A DNA stretch of 64,000 nt from Neelides folsomi (lineage: Eukaryota > Arthropoda > Collembola > Neelipleona > Neelidae): NCBI GenBank assembly GCA_034687125.1, contig JAQGBZ010000232.1, positions 1-64,000 on the forward strand. Reading direction: 5' to 3'. A program made the position numbers and the translations under genes. Under the pieces are notes generated by a model that did no database searches, had not been told where the DNA came from, and saw nothing but the letters and a program-made list of their open reading frames with translations. This document shows, one piece after another, positions 1 through 25,200 of this stretch (within the stretch, counting starts at the first letter, position 1; every line of letters begins with the position of its first letter).

Positions 1-665
1 GTGAAAGTTCTGCAATCTGAGAAGGGTGTTGTCGTTGCTACAAGTAAAAATGGATGGATGAATTCTGAGCTTGTTAAACGATGGCTTGATGACGCTTACG
101 GAAAAATGTGCTTTTCAAAACGCATGCTCGTTTGGGATAGCTACAAATGCCACATTGATCAAGATGTAAAAAAACACTTTAAACAGTTTAACAGCGTGAT
201 GATCACAATTCCAGGAGGTTGTACAAAGTACCTGCAACCGCCAGATGTTTCTTGGAACATGCCTTTCAAGAAGCATATAATGGAATCATATGATTCTTGG
301 ATGTCATTGGACGAAAATAAAACTTTTACTTCAGGAGGACGACTTAAGGCTCCTCCTCTCAAAATTCTTGTTAAATGGGTCAGAGACGCTTGGGAATCAA
401 TTTCGACTGAGATTATCACAAAGTCATTTAAAATCTGTGGAATCACAACTTCTGATGATGGGGCGGATGATCATTTAATCAACTGCTTCAAAGAAGGGCA
501 AAATGTTCTGGAGGCCTTGCTCTACTTGAAAAATTTCGTCATGAAGTTAATAATGAGCCTGTCACATTACAAGAAGAAGAGGATGTAGAAGAATTTCATG
601 AAAATGAAACCCTTATTTCAGAGAGCGAAGATGAGGAAACGGAGAGCTCTGATTCTAGCGATTGA
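1..665 (+). pseudogene. pogo/Tigger-type transposase, 3' half, frameshifted
   Basis: The reading frame enters from the left edge and shows the C-terminal half of a DDE_1 (pogo/Tigger, POGK-like) transposase. What is seen: a VWDSYKCH block carrying a catalytic Asp, an IPGGCTKYLQPPDVSWNMPFK-type block carrying the next Asp, then a W-rich helical region and SFKICGI. The first catalytic Asp would lie left of the window. At about 510-518 the frame changes: frame 1 stops at 588, but frame 3 from about 516 continues with an acidic tail (EEEDVEEFHE, then ESEDEETESSDSSD) and stops at 663-665. Acidic tails of this kind are usual in the family, so a frameshift near 515 is inferred and the copy is probably inactive. 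The family assignment is from recalled motifs. Confidence 0.8.
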
Positions 666-1243: not shown

Positions 1244-3258
1244 ATGGCAGTTCCATCATTATTCCAAAATAATAGTTTCTCAGTTCACATTGGGCGAGGG
1301 TTGATGGTCACTCCGCATGAGTTTCCCTTCATGGCCAATTTGAGAATGGTGGAAAATAATGTTCACTTTTGCGGCGGAACAATTATTTCCGCGATGCTCA
1401 TCATCACGGCAGCTCATTGTGTGGAAAATGAAAGTGAATATGAAAATGTTCGTGTCGTTGCCGGACAACACAATTTGAATATCGTTGATCCAAAAGTTGA
1501 GCAAAAGAGGAAAATCTCCAAAGTGTACATTCATCCAAATTACGTCCGTGGAAATAAAAATAATCCACCATATGACATTGCAGTGATTGTGTTAAACACG
1601 CCTTTTAAATTTAATAATAACGTCAATTGCTTGAATCCATTGACGACTGCTTTGAATGTCTCAGGTTATTTCAATGGAATATTCATATAATTTTACTATA
1701 ACATAAATTATAAATATAAAATTGATTTTGCATAACTGTAATATTGTATATTGTAAAATATATTAATAATGAATGCTACATGTGCTTGTAAAAGTAAATA
1801 TTTATTAAAGTATATATTTCATTTATTTATTTAATATTTTTAATGCAGGAAAAATTGGAAGAATTATTGGTTGGGGAAATGTTGGAATTCGTGAAACTTC
1901 GCCAATATTGAACAAAGCTTATATCGAACTTATGAATAGAAAAAAATGTGATTTGCTTCTTAATGAAATTCCTCAAAATGTTTTTCTAAACATTTATGAA
2001 AGCATAATTTGCAGTACGAAATCAGTGAAGTCAATTTGTTCAGGAGATTCTGGAGGTCCAATGATTTGTAAAAGTAAAGCAAAATACATTATAAACATAT
2101 ATAATTTTCATTTTTGATACATTATTAATGTCATTAAACTATCTGATTGATAGAGAAAACAATTTGTTTTTTTGTTCAAATGTTTGAGTAGATTTTTTAA
2201 CTCTTATTTAGACAATCGCGGTTTAGCTTCTTTGTGTGGAGTATCAGTATTTAGTCCTGATTCTTGTGGTGAAGGATTTGAAATCGAAAGTTATTTTACT
2301 TCGCTTCCATATTTTTATTCTTGGATCAAACATGGCCCTATGAAGTATGCAACATTATATATACTCTACATATTATGTATCGGTATTATGTAGTATTCAT
2401 TAAAATACATATATATATTGTATTTTACAAAAAATGAGTATTACACATATTTATATTATAAATTATTTTGTTTTTAATTGAAGAGATTCTTACGCCCTGG
2501 GAAAAAACATTTATAAAAATTATTCAACACTTTTTTGTGGAAACGAAGAATTTTTATGTAGAAAGGATAAAACAATTCCGTTGATTTTTCAATGCGACAA
2601 TGAAAATGATTGCGGGCGCGGAGAAGATGAAATCGGTTGTCTCCCTTGTAGTGAAAACGAATTTAAATGCAAAAATCAGAATTGCATAACGGAAGACAAA
2701 GTTTGCAATTCTCAAAATGATTGCAGTGATGGTTCGGATGAATTCGGTTGTGGAGAATTTTGCCATCCAAATTTCTTTTTATGTGCTTCTCAACATTATT
2801 GCTTGATCGGAGCTTTTGTTTGTGATGGCAATAACGATTGCCATGATGGATCCGATGAAGTAAATTGTGGAAATTGCAAATTGAATCAGTTTAGATGTAA
2901 AAACGGCAATTGCATACCTTTGTCCCATGTTTGTGATTACGAAAACGATTGTAAGGATGGGTCAGATGAGTTAAACTGCGAAAATTGCAAAAATGAGTTT
3001 AGATGCAAAAACGATCAATGCCTGAAGATTTCTTCATTTTGCAACGGGATTAAGGATTGTGAAGACGATTCTGACGAAATTGATTGTTCAAGGTTCGTAC
3101 TCGATTTTAACAATACAACACAATTGAAATTTAAACATCTTCAAATCACAACTTCAACGACCGAAGCACCATTTTTTGAAAATAACGGTAACATTTCAAA
3201 AATAATTTTGATTCAATCGCCATTGTGGCCCAATATATTTATATTTTGTAAATTTTAA
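1244..3258 (+). CDS. serine protease (S1) with five C-terminal LDLa repeats
   Basis: Exons 1244-1664, 1849-2073, 2212-2344 and 2484-3247 (or to the stop at 3256-3258 if unspliced). All have GT-AG borders and matching phases (1, 1, 2, then 1). Residues: CGGTIISA and TAAHC give His57; PYDIAVIVL gives Asp102; CSGDSGGP gives Ser195. The residue six before Ser195 is Ser, as in chymotrypsin rather than trypsin, and the S1-pocket SWG segment reads SVF. The mature N-terminus reads IGRG, not IVGG. Exon 4 carries five LDLa modules with six cysteines each and SDE- or DDE-type calcium acidic residues, then a Ser/Thr-rich stretch and a hydrophobic segment. The Met at 1244 gives no signal peptide. An acceptor (TTTCTCAG) at 1283 in phase 1, the usual entry phase of S1 domains, suggests a missing 5' exon. 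Likely secreted. The end of this gene is uncertain: the frame can splice at 3247 into the CRAL-TRIO exons. Confidence 0.85.
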
Positions 3259-3288
3259 TTTATCGTTTGTTTAATTATTTATTTGAAG

Positions 3289-4706
3289 ATGATTCTTTTG
3301 TTCATGATAATAACATGGATTTTACAAGTGATGAAATGGAACTTGTAAATCAAGTAAAATTTTTTAATATTAAAAATTAAATTACTTATAAATTAAATTC
3401 ATCAATTTTTTGTAACAATATCATATTTAATATTTTTCAGCTACGAGATGAGCTTACACAAATAAAGAATAACGAAAATTATGACTCTCACGAATATTTA
3501 CAAAATTGGCTTAATGACAATTCAAATCTGGTTTTGCTAAATTTTCTCAAATGTGAAATTAATTTAATTTCGTGAATATTCTTTAAATTACTTCTAAATA
3601 TATTTTAAAATCCATGATTAGTTTAATATTTTAAATTTACTTTTATTCGTAGATAACCAACATGATTTGGATAAGACAGAAAAGCATATAAAAAAGGTAT
3701 AAAGTATCTGTTTTTAATAAATTATTTTCAATTTTTAGAGCATAATAAAATTTTATTTAGGCAATGAAATGGAGACGTGAAAATGAAATTGAGAAAATAT
3801 TTGATTGGGAATATCCGCATGACTTTCCTGAAAGATATCCTTGGAGGATTACAGGATTTACCAAAGATAATAAACCAGGTTTTATTATAAATACCTTAAA
3901 ACGTTAAAATTGAATTGTAGAAAGTGGCATAGAAGTAAAATTAATTATTTAAAAATCTGTTTAGTTTTATATCAATCTGCTGGTCATTGGAATACAAAAA
4001 CCGCAGTTTATAAAGGGCAAGACAAAGATTTCATTAGATGGGTTATATTTATGTGCGAGACAGCCATGAAAGAAGCATCAAGAAGAATTGATCCTAAAAG
4101 TGGGCTCGGTGTTGGAAACATTTATCACATTGTTGATCTTCATCAATTCAATTGGGCCCTTGTTAACACATATAGATGTAATTAAACATTTTTTATAACA
4201 AAGGAATTACATTTAATTAAACTTGCCATCTGGAAATATTCTTGCTTGTTTTATTTTTAGCATTTCTAACCCGAATTTCAAACGCTCGTATTATGGATTT
4301 TATTTATCCTTTGTCTACAGTAAAAGTATTTATTATTCGAGGTAAAATTAAAAATTTAAATATTTCTTTGTAAAATACGCTACTTTATGAACTCAAAAAA
4401 CGTTATTTAAATGATTGCAATTTTATGCTCTTATGCATTTATGTATATAATGTCTTATGTACATATAAGTGTCATATTATTATGTTTAAATAGTATATTA
4501 TGTTTAATTTAATAAAGAAAATCATTTTTCCAACAGGCCCGAATTCTTTTTATCGAGCTTTCGAGAGATTAAAAGGATTTATTTCTGAGAAATCCCTTGA
4601 AAGATTCATTGTCGCAGATAGGTATGAAAATAATTGGAAGCCGCCTATTTACCAAAGAATTCCAATAGAAGCCATTCCAGTTGAACTCGGCGGAAAGAGC
4701 AATTAA
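3289..4706 (+). CDS. CRAL-TRIO (Sec14-like) lipid-binding domain protein
   Basis: Exons 3289-3353, 3441-3552, 3653-3696, 3761-3878, 3965-4177, 4261-4341 and 4537-4706; all phases agree and the stop is TAA. The product shows a CRAL-TRIO N-terminal helical region (LRDELTQIKNN, DLDKTEKHIKKAMKWR), then the Sec14 fold (WRITGFTKDNKP, SAGHWNTKTAVYKG, IYHIVDLHQFNW) and its C-terminal part (SFYRAFERLKGFISEKSL). Such domains bind small hydrophobic ligands such as phosphoinositides, tocopherols or retinoids in a closed pocket; the ligand cannot be told here. No GOLD domain follows. If independent, the first Met is at 3315 (MDFTSDEMELVNQ), only 57 bp after the LDLa stop. If the intron 3248-3288 is real, this is the C-terminal part of the protease-LDLa protein; the phase-1 junction fits exactly. 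Confidence 0.85.
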
Positions 4707-5102: not shown

Positions 5103-5150
5103 CCGATATGATTAACATATTAATTACAATTAATATGTTAATCATATCGG
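5103..5150. repeat. perfect 23-bp-arm palindrome at the Harbinger edge
   Basis: Arms 5103-5125 and 5128-5150 are exact reverse complements separated by 2 nt (AC). The outer sequence is CCGATATG...CATATCGG. The right arm overlaps the first two bases of the Harbinger left terminus and includes the presumed 3-bp target site. Confidence 0.9.
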
Positions 5151-10205: not shown

Positions 10206-10454
10206 CTAAATAAAGAATTCAGTTAAATTTTAATTCTATTATTTATTCTTAAATATTACTCTGATTAAGTCATTGAATTATTCATCATGGAATAAAAGTT
10301 TAAATTTTCATATAAACTAATGTAATTTAAATAAAAAATTTTAATCCTGGAAAAATTAAAGATCTAAAAATATTCTTATTTAATGTTATAAAAAACGGTA
10401 ATAAAATTTTAACCAATTAAAAGTTCATCCTTTTTCACTTTATATTTATTCTTA
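10206..10454. other. AT-rich spacer
   Basis: No feature recognised between the kinase-like exon and the Tc1/mariner target site. Confidence 0.4.
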
Positions 10455-10456
10455 TA

Positions 10457-11964
10457 CAGGGTCATTATAATAAATTGGGGGGTATCGGTTCAATGACTTC
10501 TAGATTTCTCAGGAACATGAGACCTACCATTCGAAAGAGCACAAAAAACTTCATTAATAGGTATAATTTCATAATGATATGTCAAAGTTCAAATTTAATA
10601 AGTTCAAAATATTGCCTTATATAACAAAAGTCAATAATCGGTATTTCCTTTTTGCAATTTCAATTCTCTGGAAAAGAAATGAGAAGTGATTTGAACAAAT
10701 CGGTGTCACTTTTCATGTTTTGTAACACTGAAGAATTGATTTGAATGAATTGATCATTTGAAAAGTCATTGTTTGGGAAGTCCTCAATTAACTGTTTTTC
10801 AACTTTCTCCTTCAACAACGCACCCAAATGTTTTGCTGAATTCAAATCAGGAGAATTTCCTGGCCATTGGGAATTGTCAAAGAAGTCAATATTGTTTTCT
10901 CTCAACAGTGCTTGTGTGAGCAAAGCCTTCATGCAGGGTGCACGGTCATGGAGGAATGTTACCTCATTTGGATCAATCACGTTTTCTTTGTCTTTTAAGA
11001 AAGGAATCACATTTTTCTTAAGGATTTCATTACGGAAATAAGCCCCATCCCATGTTTGTCCTTTTTCTTTGATCACAAACATTAGTGACTTATTGTGAAA
11101 CATATGAAAACACCAACACAAGTAGGGTAACTTGGAAATTCCACAATTCTTTCCGAATCTTCAATTTCACAAATTGATTTTGCCCAAACCCTATCGTTTT
11201 GAAAGTTGGGCTTCCTTGTGTAATAAATAAAGAATTCATCACTTGGGGCCAAATGAATTGAGTCTTCTTCAGTCCAATTACGGAGATATTCGCAGAATCA
11301 TAATCTGTCTTCAATATTAATTTTAGTTTTTTGGGGTTTCTTAAGGACTTGAAATGGCTTAATCCTTTCTTTCATACGAAAATTTCTTCCAGTTGAACAA
11401 CACACGGTCTTGTTTCGTTTTAAGGCTATTTCCATTACCATGCTTGATAAACTTTTTTTTTCTTGACCCTTCCAAAATGATGTCTTTTGACTCCTGGCTC
11501 ATTTTTTCCGACCTGCCAATATTTGATGTGTTCATTTTACATGTAGCATAGGTTTTTTCCATGTTCTTCTAACCCAATTAACGCTCCTCTTCAAACGGTC
11601 AGAAACCCACTTTTGCGTTATGAACACTGCACCTTCTTCTCTTGCTTCTTTCCACGCTATAACTTTAATTCTATCAATATAACGATCTTCTTCTGAATCA
11701 TTAACAAGGCCCATTATGTAAATATCATCTAACTTTAATTGATTTTAAAATGATACCTCATTTCCCAATTTTCATTTTGTATTTTTATGCTCTTAATTGT
11801 AAAATTTCTCTTAATGCCCATTAAATTTGAACTTTGACATACCATTATGAAATTATACTTATTAATGCAGTTTTTTGTGCTCTTTCGAATGGTATAGGTC
11901 TCATGTTTCTGAGAAATCTAGAAGTCATTGAACCGATACCCCTCAAACTATTATAATGACCCTG
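10457..11964 (-). mobile_element. Tc1/mariner-type transposon with ~145-bp inverted repeats
   Basis: The element begins CAGGGTCATTATAATA and ends with its reverse complement. It is flanked by TA on both sides (10455-10456 and 11965-11966), the target duplication of the superfamily. The inverted repeats run 10457-10599 and 11820-11964 and differ by only a few substitutions and a 2-bp indel. The interior holds a decayed minus-strand transposase. Total length is 1508 bp. Confidence 0.93.
10660..11714 (-). pseudogene. Tc1/mariner-type transposase, frameshifted
   Basis: Starts near 11714 with a helix-turn-helix-like region (FITQKWVSDRLKRSVNWVRR). Frame changes follow near 11545, near 11290-11360 and near 11100. 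Recognisable blocks are PSDEFFIYYTRKPNFQNDRV (first Asp region plus the family NDRVWA signature), HDRAPCMKALLTQ (second Asp), and QWPGNSPDLNSAKHLGALLK. In the last block the position normally occupied by the third catalytic acid (SPDLNP-x-E in Tc1-like proteins) reads Lys. The gene ends at 10660. It is dead by several frameshifts, and probably also by loss of the third catalytic residue. Confidence 0.88.
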
Positions 11965-11966
11965 TA

Positions 11967-12485
11967 TTTAAAAACTTGAGCTCAATCATTTGCAATTGAA
12001 CAATAAATTTTGTCTCCGATGAATTCCTTAAATTCATCTTCATTTAAAAATCTTAAAATTCACAATCAATACGTTTGATAATGTTTTTTGGCTTAAGGGG
12101 AAACAAGAATTGTTTTTAAGACCAAACAATTTATCGGATTTAACTGATGAAGTTGGAGAATTTACTACTCAGGCAATTGAATTGTTTAGCTTCCCAAGAA
12201 GGCATTTGCAAGTTCTATTGAAAAAAGTACTAAAAACCACAAATATCAAAATATTTGAAGATCTCTAAGATGCTAAGATGTTTCCAAATCTTAGCTTCGA
12301 GAATTATCGCAAGAATGTTCTAGGAGTCAAATTATAAACTAATGCTTTATTATTCTTAAACTATATATAAATAAAACCTTTCATTGGAAATGAAAATGTA
12401 AATAAATAATTCATATAAAAATTAAATTGTATTTTTTCTGAAATTTAATATGGAATTGTGGACTTAAGTAATTTAAGTCATTGCA
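11967..12485. other. AT-rich spacer beyond the Tc1/mariner element
   Basis: About 50 plus-strand codons are open at roughly 12105-12265, but no family is recognised. Otherwise empty as far as can be seen. Confidence 0.35.
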
Positions 12486-22200: not shown

Positions 22201-25200
22201 TGGGAATCCGACTTTTGCTTGTTTTTCGTCATTCGCCATAAAAGCGGACCTTCGAAAATCAATCGATGCTTCGTAAAGTCCAAATTCTGAAAATATCAAT
22301 TAATATTTTTAGCTTTAATGACAATTAATGAATACCATAAGTTGCGAGATGAATTTTTAACTATTTTATTATTTACGTTAACGGTTAATTTTAATTAAAT
22401 AATATTAAAATTAACGGCTTAATTCAATTTTAAATAATTGTAATAATTACAAAATTTTAATATTGAATCAATTAAAATTCAATTATTTAATTAGTATTAA
22501 TAATAATTAATTTTAATTTACCCTTAGTTCCACAAGTTCTGATTTTTCTTGGATTTTGTCTAATGACTGTTTGTCAAGTTTGCTCTGGATGTTGAAGAGT
22601 CTTTGATTGTCTTCTGCCTCTTTCTTGGCCTGATTCACCGTGTTGAGAATTTCCTTACTCATTTCCACAGCCCTTTGGATGTTTTTGTACTCGGGGGAAT
22701 CGCGTGCCGTGCAAGTCCAAAGGTTCTCAAACAACAGCGGATATTTGGTGAGCCTCTGCATTGCCATTGGAATCATATCACTGATTTGGAGTCGACGACA
22801 GACGCTTTCCGCCTCCGCCTCCACGAGGAATGCATGGAATTTTTGATCTTTTCGACGACGTTCTTTCAATGCCTCAAGGCCTATTTGTTGTCGGGAGCAA
22901 AATGTCGCTGCGGCTCTTTTGAAAGTTTCACCCTTTTCACCATCAAACTAAAATTAAAATTAAAATTTTATTATTGACAAAATCATTAACAAATTAACAG
23001 TTTGATTTCCGTTTTCGCTTAAAGTTAAAGCTTCTCATAACACTTTAATATTTAAGTATTTAATCATCATAATGTTAACTGATTTAATTTAAAATAATTA
23101 AATTAAGATTAAAATTGGTTAAATTAAGATTAAAATTGGTTATAAAGTAGAAGAGAATGTAAAAAATAAATTAAAACCACGTGTATGGATTTGAAAAGAA
23201 CATTGGTCCATAAAATGAAATTGGTTTATGGGGGTTTGTGTGAGGTGTTTGTATTGAATTTGGTGGTAATTGGGGAATTACCATTTCCAGGAGCACCGAT
23301 CCAATATCACCAACGAGGGGGCTTTCAGCCCTTTTCTTTTTCAGAGCCACATTGAATTGGGCGTGGATGTCGAGCATTTCCTCCAAATTGGCAAAGATGG
23401 TTTCAATGAGACTCTCCTGGAGAAGCTTTTGCTGTCGAATCCGGTGGTGAAACAAGTTATTGATGATCCGCAAATTCTTCACGTGGGACCGCTCCGTGTG
23501 GAAGAGTTCTGGTAAAAAAAGAAGATCCCATTAAATTCCCCATTTCTTTCCCTTTCCTAATAAAAATACTTTTTTTTCATCAATGGGATTATTATTATTA
23601 GCCCGGTAAATCAAATCAACAACCGCGAACTTCCTCCCCCGAACTAACCCGGAAAGAAAACATGATGAGATAAATGAGCAGACAAAAGTTCCGATTAGGA
23701 GGAAATGAGAAGGAAAAATGAAAAATGAGAAACAGACGCCTTCGAGCAAAATTCCAAAATCTCATTTATAAAATTGATAAGCCAAAATCTCAAATCCCAA
23801 TATTACTGCATGAATAAAAGCAATTGCAAAAATATTCAAATTAAATAATAATTGCAAAAATGTTGACATTAAATAAAAGTATTTGAAAATGTGTTCACAT
23901 TAAATAAAAAAGTAATTGAAAAAATAATCCAATGAAAGCCAGATAAAGAAAATTTAAATAAATATATTAAATATTAAAAAGAATTAACTTTCAATAGATT
24001 TGAACATTTCTCCCATGATTAATTTTCTATTACCTAAAAATAAGTAGGTAAGATATTAATTACCATTTAGAACTTCTTGTCTTTTCTTCTCAAGCCGATG
24101 AAGTGAGGCGAGAGTTTCCTCGGGGACATTTCTTGTCCAATCCGGTGGATCTTGCTCAATCTCAATATCACTGTCGCCGTCCCATCCAGCATAAGTGGCC
24201 CGAAAGGACTCTGACAATCCGCCCGCTCCGATTTCAGGAGTTTCTGAACTTCGTCCGGGGAGCGAAGAGGACGAATGGTTTGAAGGGACAACAAGCTCTT
24301 GAGATGTGCTTGGACTATCAACCATCCTATTAAAAAATAATTAAACATATTAAATACAATCTAAAATAATTAACTAAACAACTATTTAAATAACCCTACA
24401 ATTATTACTTCAATTTAATTCCATTGAAGCTTAAAATTAATTTAATGAATTATTAATATTGATAATAATCGATAAATTACCTTCCGGATAAGCTGGAATT
24501 GGACGAGCTTCCAGAATTATTTGCATCATTCAACCTGCGCTCGAGATCGACATCACTATAAACACGAAAAAATCAATAAAAACCCGATACTTCCAATTAA
24601 GCCCAATTACACCACGAATATCAATTCATATATGAAAATGCCAATTTAATTATACCCCTAATCCCAATCAAATGCATATCTTGAGTAATAAATGAAATTG
24701 GAACATGTTTGAAAATAATTGTTCATAACTACGCCGTAGAGGGAAATGTGGGTCGAAAATGAATCGTAATTTGAAGCCTAAAACAACAAAATGTCAATTT
24801 GTGATGGGATAAATTTTGTCCTCCCCAAACTCGGCGTGTCTCCTTTACATTATTTGCCATTTGTCAATATGAAACGGGTTCTTTTCATCCCGTTGATTTG
24901 GGAAAATGGGAAAATGAATATCATCGGACCCATCAAGTCTTATTACTTTCTCCCACCACACACGCGGAGTGGAAAACGGGAAAACAAAGGAAGTTGGTCA
25001 ACGACCGCCCCTATCTTTTCATCTCCCAAATGACCAGGAAAAAACCCGGGACTTTTCATTCCACCTTCTTTTTAACCATTTTACCACAGGAAAAAAACTC
25101 AGGAAAAAAACCCAGAAATAAAACCCAGGAAAAAAACCCATCAAGCCAATGAGAAATCCTGAAGAAAATGACGAAGAAACTTCAAAAAATCGTTTTTGAA

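Follow-up and report, generated by a model that had tools for sequence, protein, structure and literature searches.

A putative family of fused serine protease, LDLa and CRAL-TRIO genes in the springtail Neelides folsomi

The window analyzed here, a stretch of 64,000 nucleotides from contig JAQGBZ010000232.1 (C232) of the Neelides folsomi assembly, very probably carries at positions 1244-4706 one fused gene, which in this animal has at least four relatives of the same make-up. The predicted product would consist of an S1 protease domain, five LDLa repeats, an unconserved linker and a SEC14-like CRAL-TRIO domain. The initial annotation had proposed a single chimeric S1-LDLa-CRAL-TRIO gene at this place, a proposal that is backed by four more loci elsewhere in this genome, at which order, strand, frame and intron phases match.

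Eleven exons with GT-AG introns on the plus strand join into a single open frame (Table 1). The phases of the ten introns are 1,1,2,1,0,1,0,1,1,1, and the stop codon (4704-4706) is found immediately past the CRAL-TRIO domain. The frame as originally drawn was borne out: with a donor at 3248 it encodes 781 aa plus the stop, and the remaining introns are 64-195 nt. Exon 1 encodes two residues of the catalytic triad, His 58 (in TAAHC) and Asp 111 (in YDIAVI). If exon 4 is left unspliced, it runs into a stop TAA at 3256-3258; an alternative end of this exon is at 3247. This stop and an in-frame ATG at 3315 are both present as claimed earlier, and their spacing is indeed short, with 56 bases counted instead of the 57 given before.

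Table 1. Predicted exons and junction intron of the fused gene (positions in the window)
Feature	Position	Strand	Content
Exon 1	1244..1664	+	First part of S1 domain, opening with a conserved ATG (MAVP..)
Exon 2	1849..2073	+	S1 domain with GDSGG; catalytic Ser is residue 208
Exon 3	2212..2344	+	C-terminus of S1 (..YFYSWIKHGPM)
Exon 4	2484..3187	+	Five LDLa repeats, then start of linker; ends at preferred donor 3188
Junction intron	3188..3288	+	101 nt, phase 1
Exon 5	3289..3353	+	Linker, then start of CRAL-TRIO N-terminal part (DDSFVHDNNMDFTSDEMELVNQ); holds ATG 3315
Exon 6	3441..3552	+	CRAL-TRIO module, N-terminal part
Exon 7	3653..3696	+	CRAL-TRIO module, N-terminal part
Exon 8	3761..3878	+	MKWRRENEIEKIFDW.., runs into CRAL-TRIO domain
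Exon 9	3965..4177	+	Core of CRAL-TRIO
Exon 10	4261..4341	+	Core of CRAL-TRIO
Exon 11	4537..4706	+	CRAL-TRIO C-terminus (..PVELGGKSN), then stop TAA

Pfam searches of the window protein returned Trypsin (2.5e-42), five LDLa stretches (1.3e-46) and CRAL_TRIO (4.9e-17). In the 761-aa form of the protein, PF00089 (S1) scored 144.5 bits against a curated cut-off of 20.6, and PF00650 (CRAL-TRIO) 60.3 bits against 22.6. All three domains were matched in each of the five fused proteins: PF00089 was above its cut-off in all four of the others (in C623 by the C-terminal part only), five stretches per protein were above the curated cut-off of PF00057 (LDLa), and PF00650 was above cut-off throughout. No Pfam domain besides CRAL_TRIO was detected in the C-terminal part, and a GOLD domain was not found there. 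The His/Asp/Ser triad is complete in the window gene (TAAHC, YDIAVI, GDSGG) and in C254. C623 keeps the catalytic Ser, and its His/Asp region lies beyond the contig end. The catalytic Ser is absent from C709 (NQLGG) and C171 (DDVGW), in which the S1 domain is otherwise conserved. The residue ahead of what we take to be the usual activation Ile of the fold is His, Gln or Leu, not Arg or Lys.

The paralogues were found by searching the genome separately with the S1-LDLa part and the CRAL-TRIO part. S1, five LDLa repeats and CRAL-TRIO occur in the same order and on one strand at C709, C254, C171 and C623, and in splice-aware alignment the 761-aa protein passes through all four loci without a frameshift (the C623 alignment begins at about query residue 192, at its contig end inside S1). 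The final models encode 770 aa (C254), 810 aa (C171), 743 aa (C709) and 565 aa (C623, partial). C254 and C171 have the same ten intron phases as the window gene, C623 has that series minus the missing first intron, and in C709 only the junction intron is lacking from the series, the LDLa exon of this locus reading directly into TDEMILIKN/FRDRL. An open frame thus crosses the junction at all four paralogous loci; the junction intron has the same phase, and the same rank among the introns, in three of them (C254, C171 and C623) and is absent from the fourth. Over S1, the three complete fused paralogues show 55-70% protein identity to the window gene; over the CRAL part, all four show 41-50%. DNA matches to the window gene cover exons, and some of them extend across a short intron. 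At all four loci the match in LDLa ends at 3088-3091 of the window. Judged by these comparisons, the fused paralogues are old copies. Three of the fused proteins were aligned and used to scan IMG/VR, which gave 54 pattern matches and no relative.

The contig of the window gene is part of a 75.1-Mb genome in 840 contigs. In its mitochondrial contig (C742), trnL(UUR) is located between COX1 and COX2, and the remaining gene order is that of the pancrustacean ground pattern, which makes a crustacean or hexapod the most likely source. ARAGORN in mitochondrial mode reported 22 tRNAs on this contig, one of them without assignment; trnN was not found. The 18S start was matched at two contig ends only, and a search for intradiol dioxygenase, taken as a spider-mite marker, gave no match.

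Two donors can join the LDLa exon to the same acceptor at 3288. Donor 3188 (ACG/GTAACA) is in phase 1 and gives a 101-nt intron and a 761-aa protein; donor 3248 gives an intron of 41 nt (3248-3288) and 781 aa. We scored both on a splice matrix for which the four paralogous loci (C709, C254, C171 and C623) supplied 38 introns. The scores are supportive and not independent, the underlying gene models having been partly picked by splice rules. Donor 3188 reached 4.2 bits, with 5 of the 38 family donors lower, and donor 3248 reached -0.7 bits, with none lower (family minimum 2.2). The junction acceptor scored 7.8 bits against a family median of 6.9. When one locus at a time was left out of the matrix, donor 3188 scored 1.1, 4.6, 4.0 and 4.4 bits and donor 3248 -0.3, -3.8, -0.8 and -0.4 bits; the fall of donor 3188 to 1.1 bits came with the removal of C709. 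The shortest of the 38 paralogue introns is 60 nt. Donor 3248 was ranked behind 3188 for its lower splice score and for an intron below this family minimum, and 3188 is the likelier donor of the junction. The phase-1 joining to acceptor 3288 proposed at the outset was retained, and the donor proposed with it (3247/3248) gave way to the better-scoring 3188. Since two of the four GTs between 3096 and 3257 are in phase 1, in-frame joining at the window gene says little when taken alone; the comparison of five loci indicates that it is more than chance.

The ratio dN/dS was estimated by Nei-Gojobori counting for all 10 pairwise comparisons among the five fused genes; the values are rough, as most pairs have a dS close to 1 or higher. 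It was 0.08-0.34 for S1 (10 pairs, those with C623 on 70 codons only), 0.09-0.25 for LDLa (nine of 10 pairs, one being saturated), 0.10-0.43 for the CRAL N-terminal part (10 pairs) and 0.18-0.67 for CRAL-TRIO (nine of 10 pairs, one saturated). For the linker, the eight pairs with finite values gave 0.66-2.09. By this measure S1, LDLa and CRAL-TRIO look to be under purifying selection and the linker does not. The low ratios in the domains and the high ratio in the linker point to two halves that are maintained as protein and a linker that is free to drift.

The stop at 3256-3258 and the ATG at 3315 would also fit two adjacent genes, S1-LDLa to 3258 and a 258-aa CRAL-TRIO protein from Met 3315, duplicated as a pair. 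The exon-5 counterpart of C171 has Mets as well, so that at these two loci, each taken alone, a separate start before the CRAL domain is possible, and stand-alone CRAL-TRIO genes do occur in the genome. The other loci argue against such a pair. In C254 and C623, the exon-5 counterpart is without an ATG and has an in-frame stop upstream, and in C709 the LDLa frame continues through this counterpart. We listed the ATG frames between the modules wherever phase-0 splicing into the next exon was possible. Those of the window gene, C171 and C709 (MILIKN, within its own LDLa frame) end at the exon-5 position, whereas the two of C254 (MILLKL and MYPITIYPM) and the one of C623 (MVIFNIFTIFNIW) end elsewhere and are unlike exon 5. 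Moreover, the phases of the junction intron agree among the paralogues, the window gene leaves only 56 bases between stop and Met, and a start at 3315 would be without the leader-like peptide seen in three stand-alone relatives. With all of this considered, we regard two adjacent genes as highly improbable.

It is also very improbable that both products are made, that is, the fusion together with a shorter CRAL-TRIO protein starting at Met 3315 or from a leader-bearing start at 3289. The latter opens another frame (MILLFMIITWILQ) that encodes a hydrophobic peptide (2.87) and ends at a phase-0 donor into exon 6; with 4.6 bits on the family matrix, this donor (3328) is on a par with 3188. A hydrophobic ATG frame is present in C623 too (MVIFNIFTIFNIW, 2.38), as is one of six residues in C254 (MILLKL), but both are at other positions and are not similar to the 3289 frame. 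No frame of this type was found in C709, and the candidates in C171 are less hydrophobic (at most 1.61). The start at 3289 would also lose the conserved TSDEMELVNQ portion of exon 5. Because the hydrophobic ATG frames are scattered and dissimilar, chance in AT-rich DNA can explain the 3289 frame.

Among the stand-alone CRAL-TRIO genes found, the closest is C411, with 38-47% identity to the fused domains. The fused CRAL part shares the intron phases of this gene (0,1,0,1,1,1). Exon 1 of C411 codes for a leader-like peptide (MFKLCIVAAIVFLGQKAQG..), and the phase-0 boundary at its end is also that of the fused genes. No S1-LDLa match was detected in the 7 kb examined around C411. Leader-like N-termini were seen in three stand-alone genes (maximum hydropathy 3.39 in C411, 3.20 in C609 and 2.29 in C493), and the earlier description of the fold as normally cytosolic does not fit the CRAL-TRIO subfamily found here. 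No leader was seen in C623b, C19, C448 and C326, whose first exons are unresolved in the alignments. A low cysteine content of the CRAL part had been considered as a sign of an oxidizing compartment and was dropped: the CRAL match L001 also has no cysteine, and several other stretches counted in this comparison contained stops, hence were off the frame of the match.

In the CRAL tree, made from 10 rows, a branch separates the fused domains from the others (support 75/87, present in 78% of 200 bootstraps). The S1 tree does not unite the fused genes: C148 and C579 fall among them, so that two changes are needed. No CRAL match was found at C148 and C579 within the 6.5 kb examined, and their placement requires a loss or a more complex history. 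An S1-LDLa gene may have been joined to a CRAL-TRIO gene resembling C411; in the fused genes the leader part would be gone and the remainder of a C411-type exon 1 would be spliced from the LDLa exon. One fusion that swapped the leader for splicing from the LDLa exon, followed by duplications, is the simplest reading, with moderate support.

The initial annotation called the product a secreted protease, a description for which the N-terminus offers no support. No signal peptide was found on the conserved S1 start of the window gene, in which the maximal 10-residue hydropathy is 0.94 (first 25 aa), compared with 2.92 for C106, an ordinary trypsin. Starts were scored for five loci (window gene, C254, C709, C171 and C148), and no hydrophobic one was found among them; the S1 of C579, the sixth locus, is 89% identical to that of C148. 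Two further S1-LDLa genes, C332 and C377, seem to have a leaderless start, as judged on 360 bases upstream. A leaderless start fits poorly with the disulfide-rich domains of the fused protein.

An upstream leader exon may have been missed, in which case the protein would be ordinarily secreted and MAVP.. would not be its sole start; we consider this unlikely, though a serious alternative. S1 and LDLa domains are normally extracellular, and the leader exon of trypsin C106 is followed by a phase-1 donor. We scanned for leader-like frames with phase-1 donors up to about 1.2 kb upstream, and the C106 control was recovered. The scan gave one such frame each at C254, C148 and C579, where shuffled sequences would be expected to yield 0.2-0.4 each. 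The frames in C148 and C579 are alike and about 420 bases upstream (that of C254 is at -741), and the upstream DNA of these two loci is 78% alike over 576 bp, which makes an overlooked leader exon possible. However, no such frame was found within this distance of the starts of the window gene, C709 and C171; a leader exon could lie farther out. The start M-[AS]-[VI]-[PS] (ATG plus three codons) is kept in all six loci compared, with changes at third positions, whereas a collinear upstream match reaching the ATG occurs in only two of 15 pairs (C148-C579 and C148-C709).

Each part of the fused protein has well-known relatives. The best solved relative of the C-terminal 258 aa is SEC14-like protein 2 (PDB 4omj; residues 41-256, 6e-18). 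The window protein keeps the GG end, but its CRAL-TRIO domain is the tail of a protease-LDLa protein, and Pfam gave no sign behind it of the GOLD domain that follows CRAL-TRIO in SEC14-like proteins 2-4. Like trypsin and chymotrypsin, the window protein has a full-length Trypsin match and the triad (best solved match 1ym0, 2.5e-21); it differs in that no signal peptide was found, and in C709 and C171 the Ser has been lost. LDLa and S1 are combined in corin, enteropeptidase, matriptase and the insect proteins ModSP and Nudel. In most of these LDLa precedes S1, whereas here S1 comes first, and none of them is known to carry CRAL-TRIO. The Ser loss in C709 and C171 resembles arthropod serine protease homologues, which are catalytically dead S1 proteins. 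Known examples bear clip domains, in place of which the fused proteins have LDLa and CRAL-TRIO. The S1-LDLa-CRAL-TRIO order was not found described in open-licence PMC text. It would be a new architecture made from known families, may be undescribed, and is known here from one genome.

The fused protein might, much like arthropod serine protease homologues, function beyond the cytosol, the cysteine-rich LDLa array acting as spacer or adaptor between a protease or pseudoprotease head and a lipid-loaded CRAL-TRIO tail. That such a head and a lipid-binding tail, with LDLa as the spacer, make up an extracellular or lysis-released protein is a tentative proposal. Given the negative search for a signal peptide, the protein would leave the cell by a non-classical route, upon lysis, or by way of an undetected leader exon. 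More speculatively, the family could represent a lineage-specific class in which a lipid-transfer fold outside the cytosol is fused to a protease or pseudoprotease and LDLa repeats, couples lipid binding to proteolytic or protease-like recognition and is exported without a classical signal peptide.

The family raises the question of what role a CRAL-TRIO domain would have outside the cytosol, and by which route disulfide-rich domains would be exported without a recognizable leader. In two of its five members, C709 and C171, the catalytic Ser is gone. With a stand-alone relative that has matching intron phases and a leader-like exon, and with five fused genes to compare, the locus offers a readable case of gene fusion.

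Not all copies of the gene that joins a trypsin-like S1 domain, five LDLa repeats and a CRAL-TRIO domain in one frame have kept the catalytic serine of the protease. In two fused paralogues this residue has been replaced, the motif reading NQLGG on contig C709 (sequence stretch L033) and DDVGW on C171 (L035), and their products are likely to be pseudoproteases. The intron separating the S1 and LDLa exons was 1,990 nt long in the fused locus of C254 (L034), compared with 65–139 nt in the other fused loci. On C365 (L037:2441-3203) a broken S1 start is followed shortly by a CRAL-TRIO C-terminus resembling that of C709, and this locus is apparently a decayed copy. A second, more distant CRAL-TRIO gene was observed in tandem downstream of the fused gene on C623 (L036, reverse strand). 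Other features of the window and of related loci are collected in the table. The best solved matches to the RhoGEF exon of the window were Rho guanine nucleotide exchange factors 12, 1, and 11.

Features of the window and of related contigs in the same genome
Feature	Location	Strand
DDE_1 transposase-like open frame, extending to the first base of the window	window 1-585	
Perfect inverted repeat, 23 nt, 2-nt loop, a short way downstream of the fused gene	window 5103-5150	
Inverted copies, 148 bp, 94% identity	window 10454-10599 and 11820-11967	
DDE_3 transposase match, weak, under the curated cut-off	window 10663-11160	-
Exon with RhoGEF domain	window 22516-22947	-
Stand-alone CRAL-TRIO gene, hydrophobic leader-like N-terminus	L038:3288-3392 (C411)	
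Stand-alone CRAL-TRIO gene, hydrophobic leader-like N-terminus	L041 (C609)	reverse
Stand-alone CRAL-TRIO gene, hydrophobic leader-like N-terminus	L042 (C493)	reverse
Additional S1-LDLa gene, apparent start without signal peptide	L052 (C332)	reverse
Additional S1-LDLa gene, apparent start without signal peptide	L053 (C377)	

Leader-like frames were also found at other positions. In the S1-LDLa loci of C148 (L039) and C579 (L040), mutually similar ones precede the S1 start by ∼420 bases; they could represent a missed leader exon, or else shared chance. In the window, MILLFMIITWILQ at 3289-3327 overlaps exon 5 of the fused gene in another frame, is leader-like and ends at a fair donor at 3328; its occurrence is possibly due to chance. 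For the stand-alone CRAL-TRIO genes of C411, C609, and C493, the hydrophobic, leader-like character of the predicted N-termini suggests a CRAL-TRIO subfamily with secretion.
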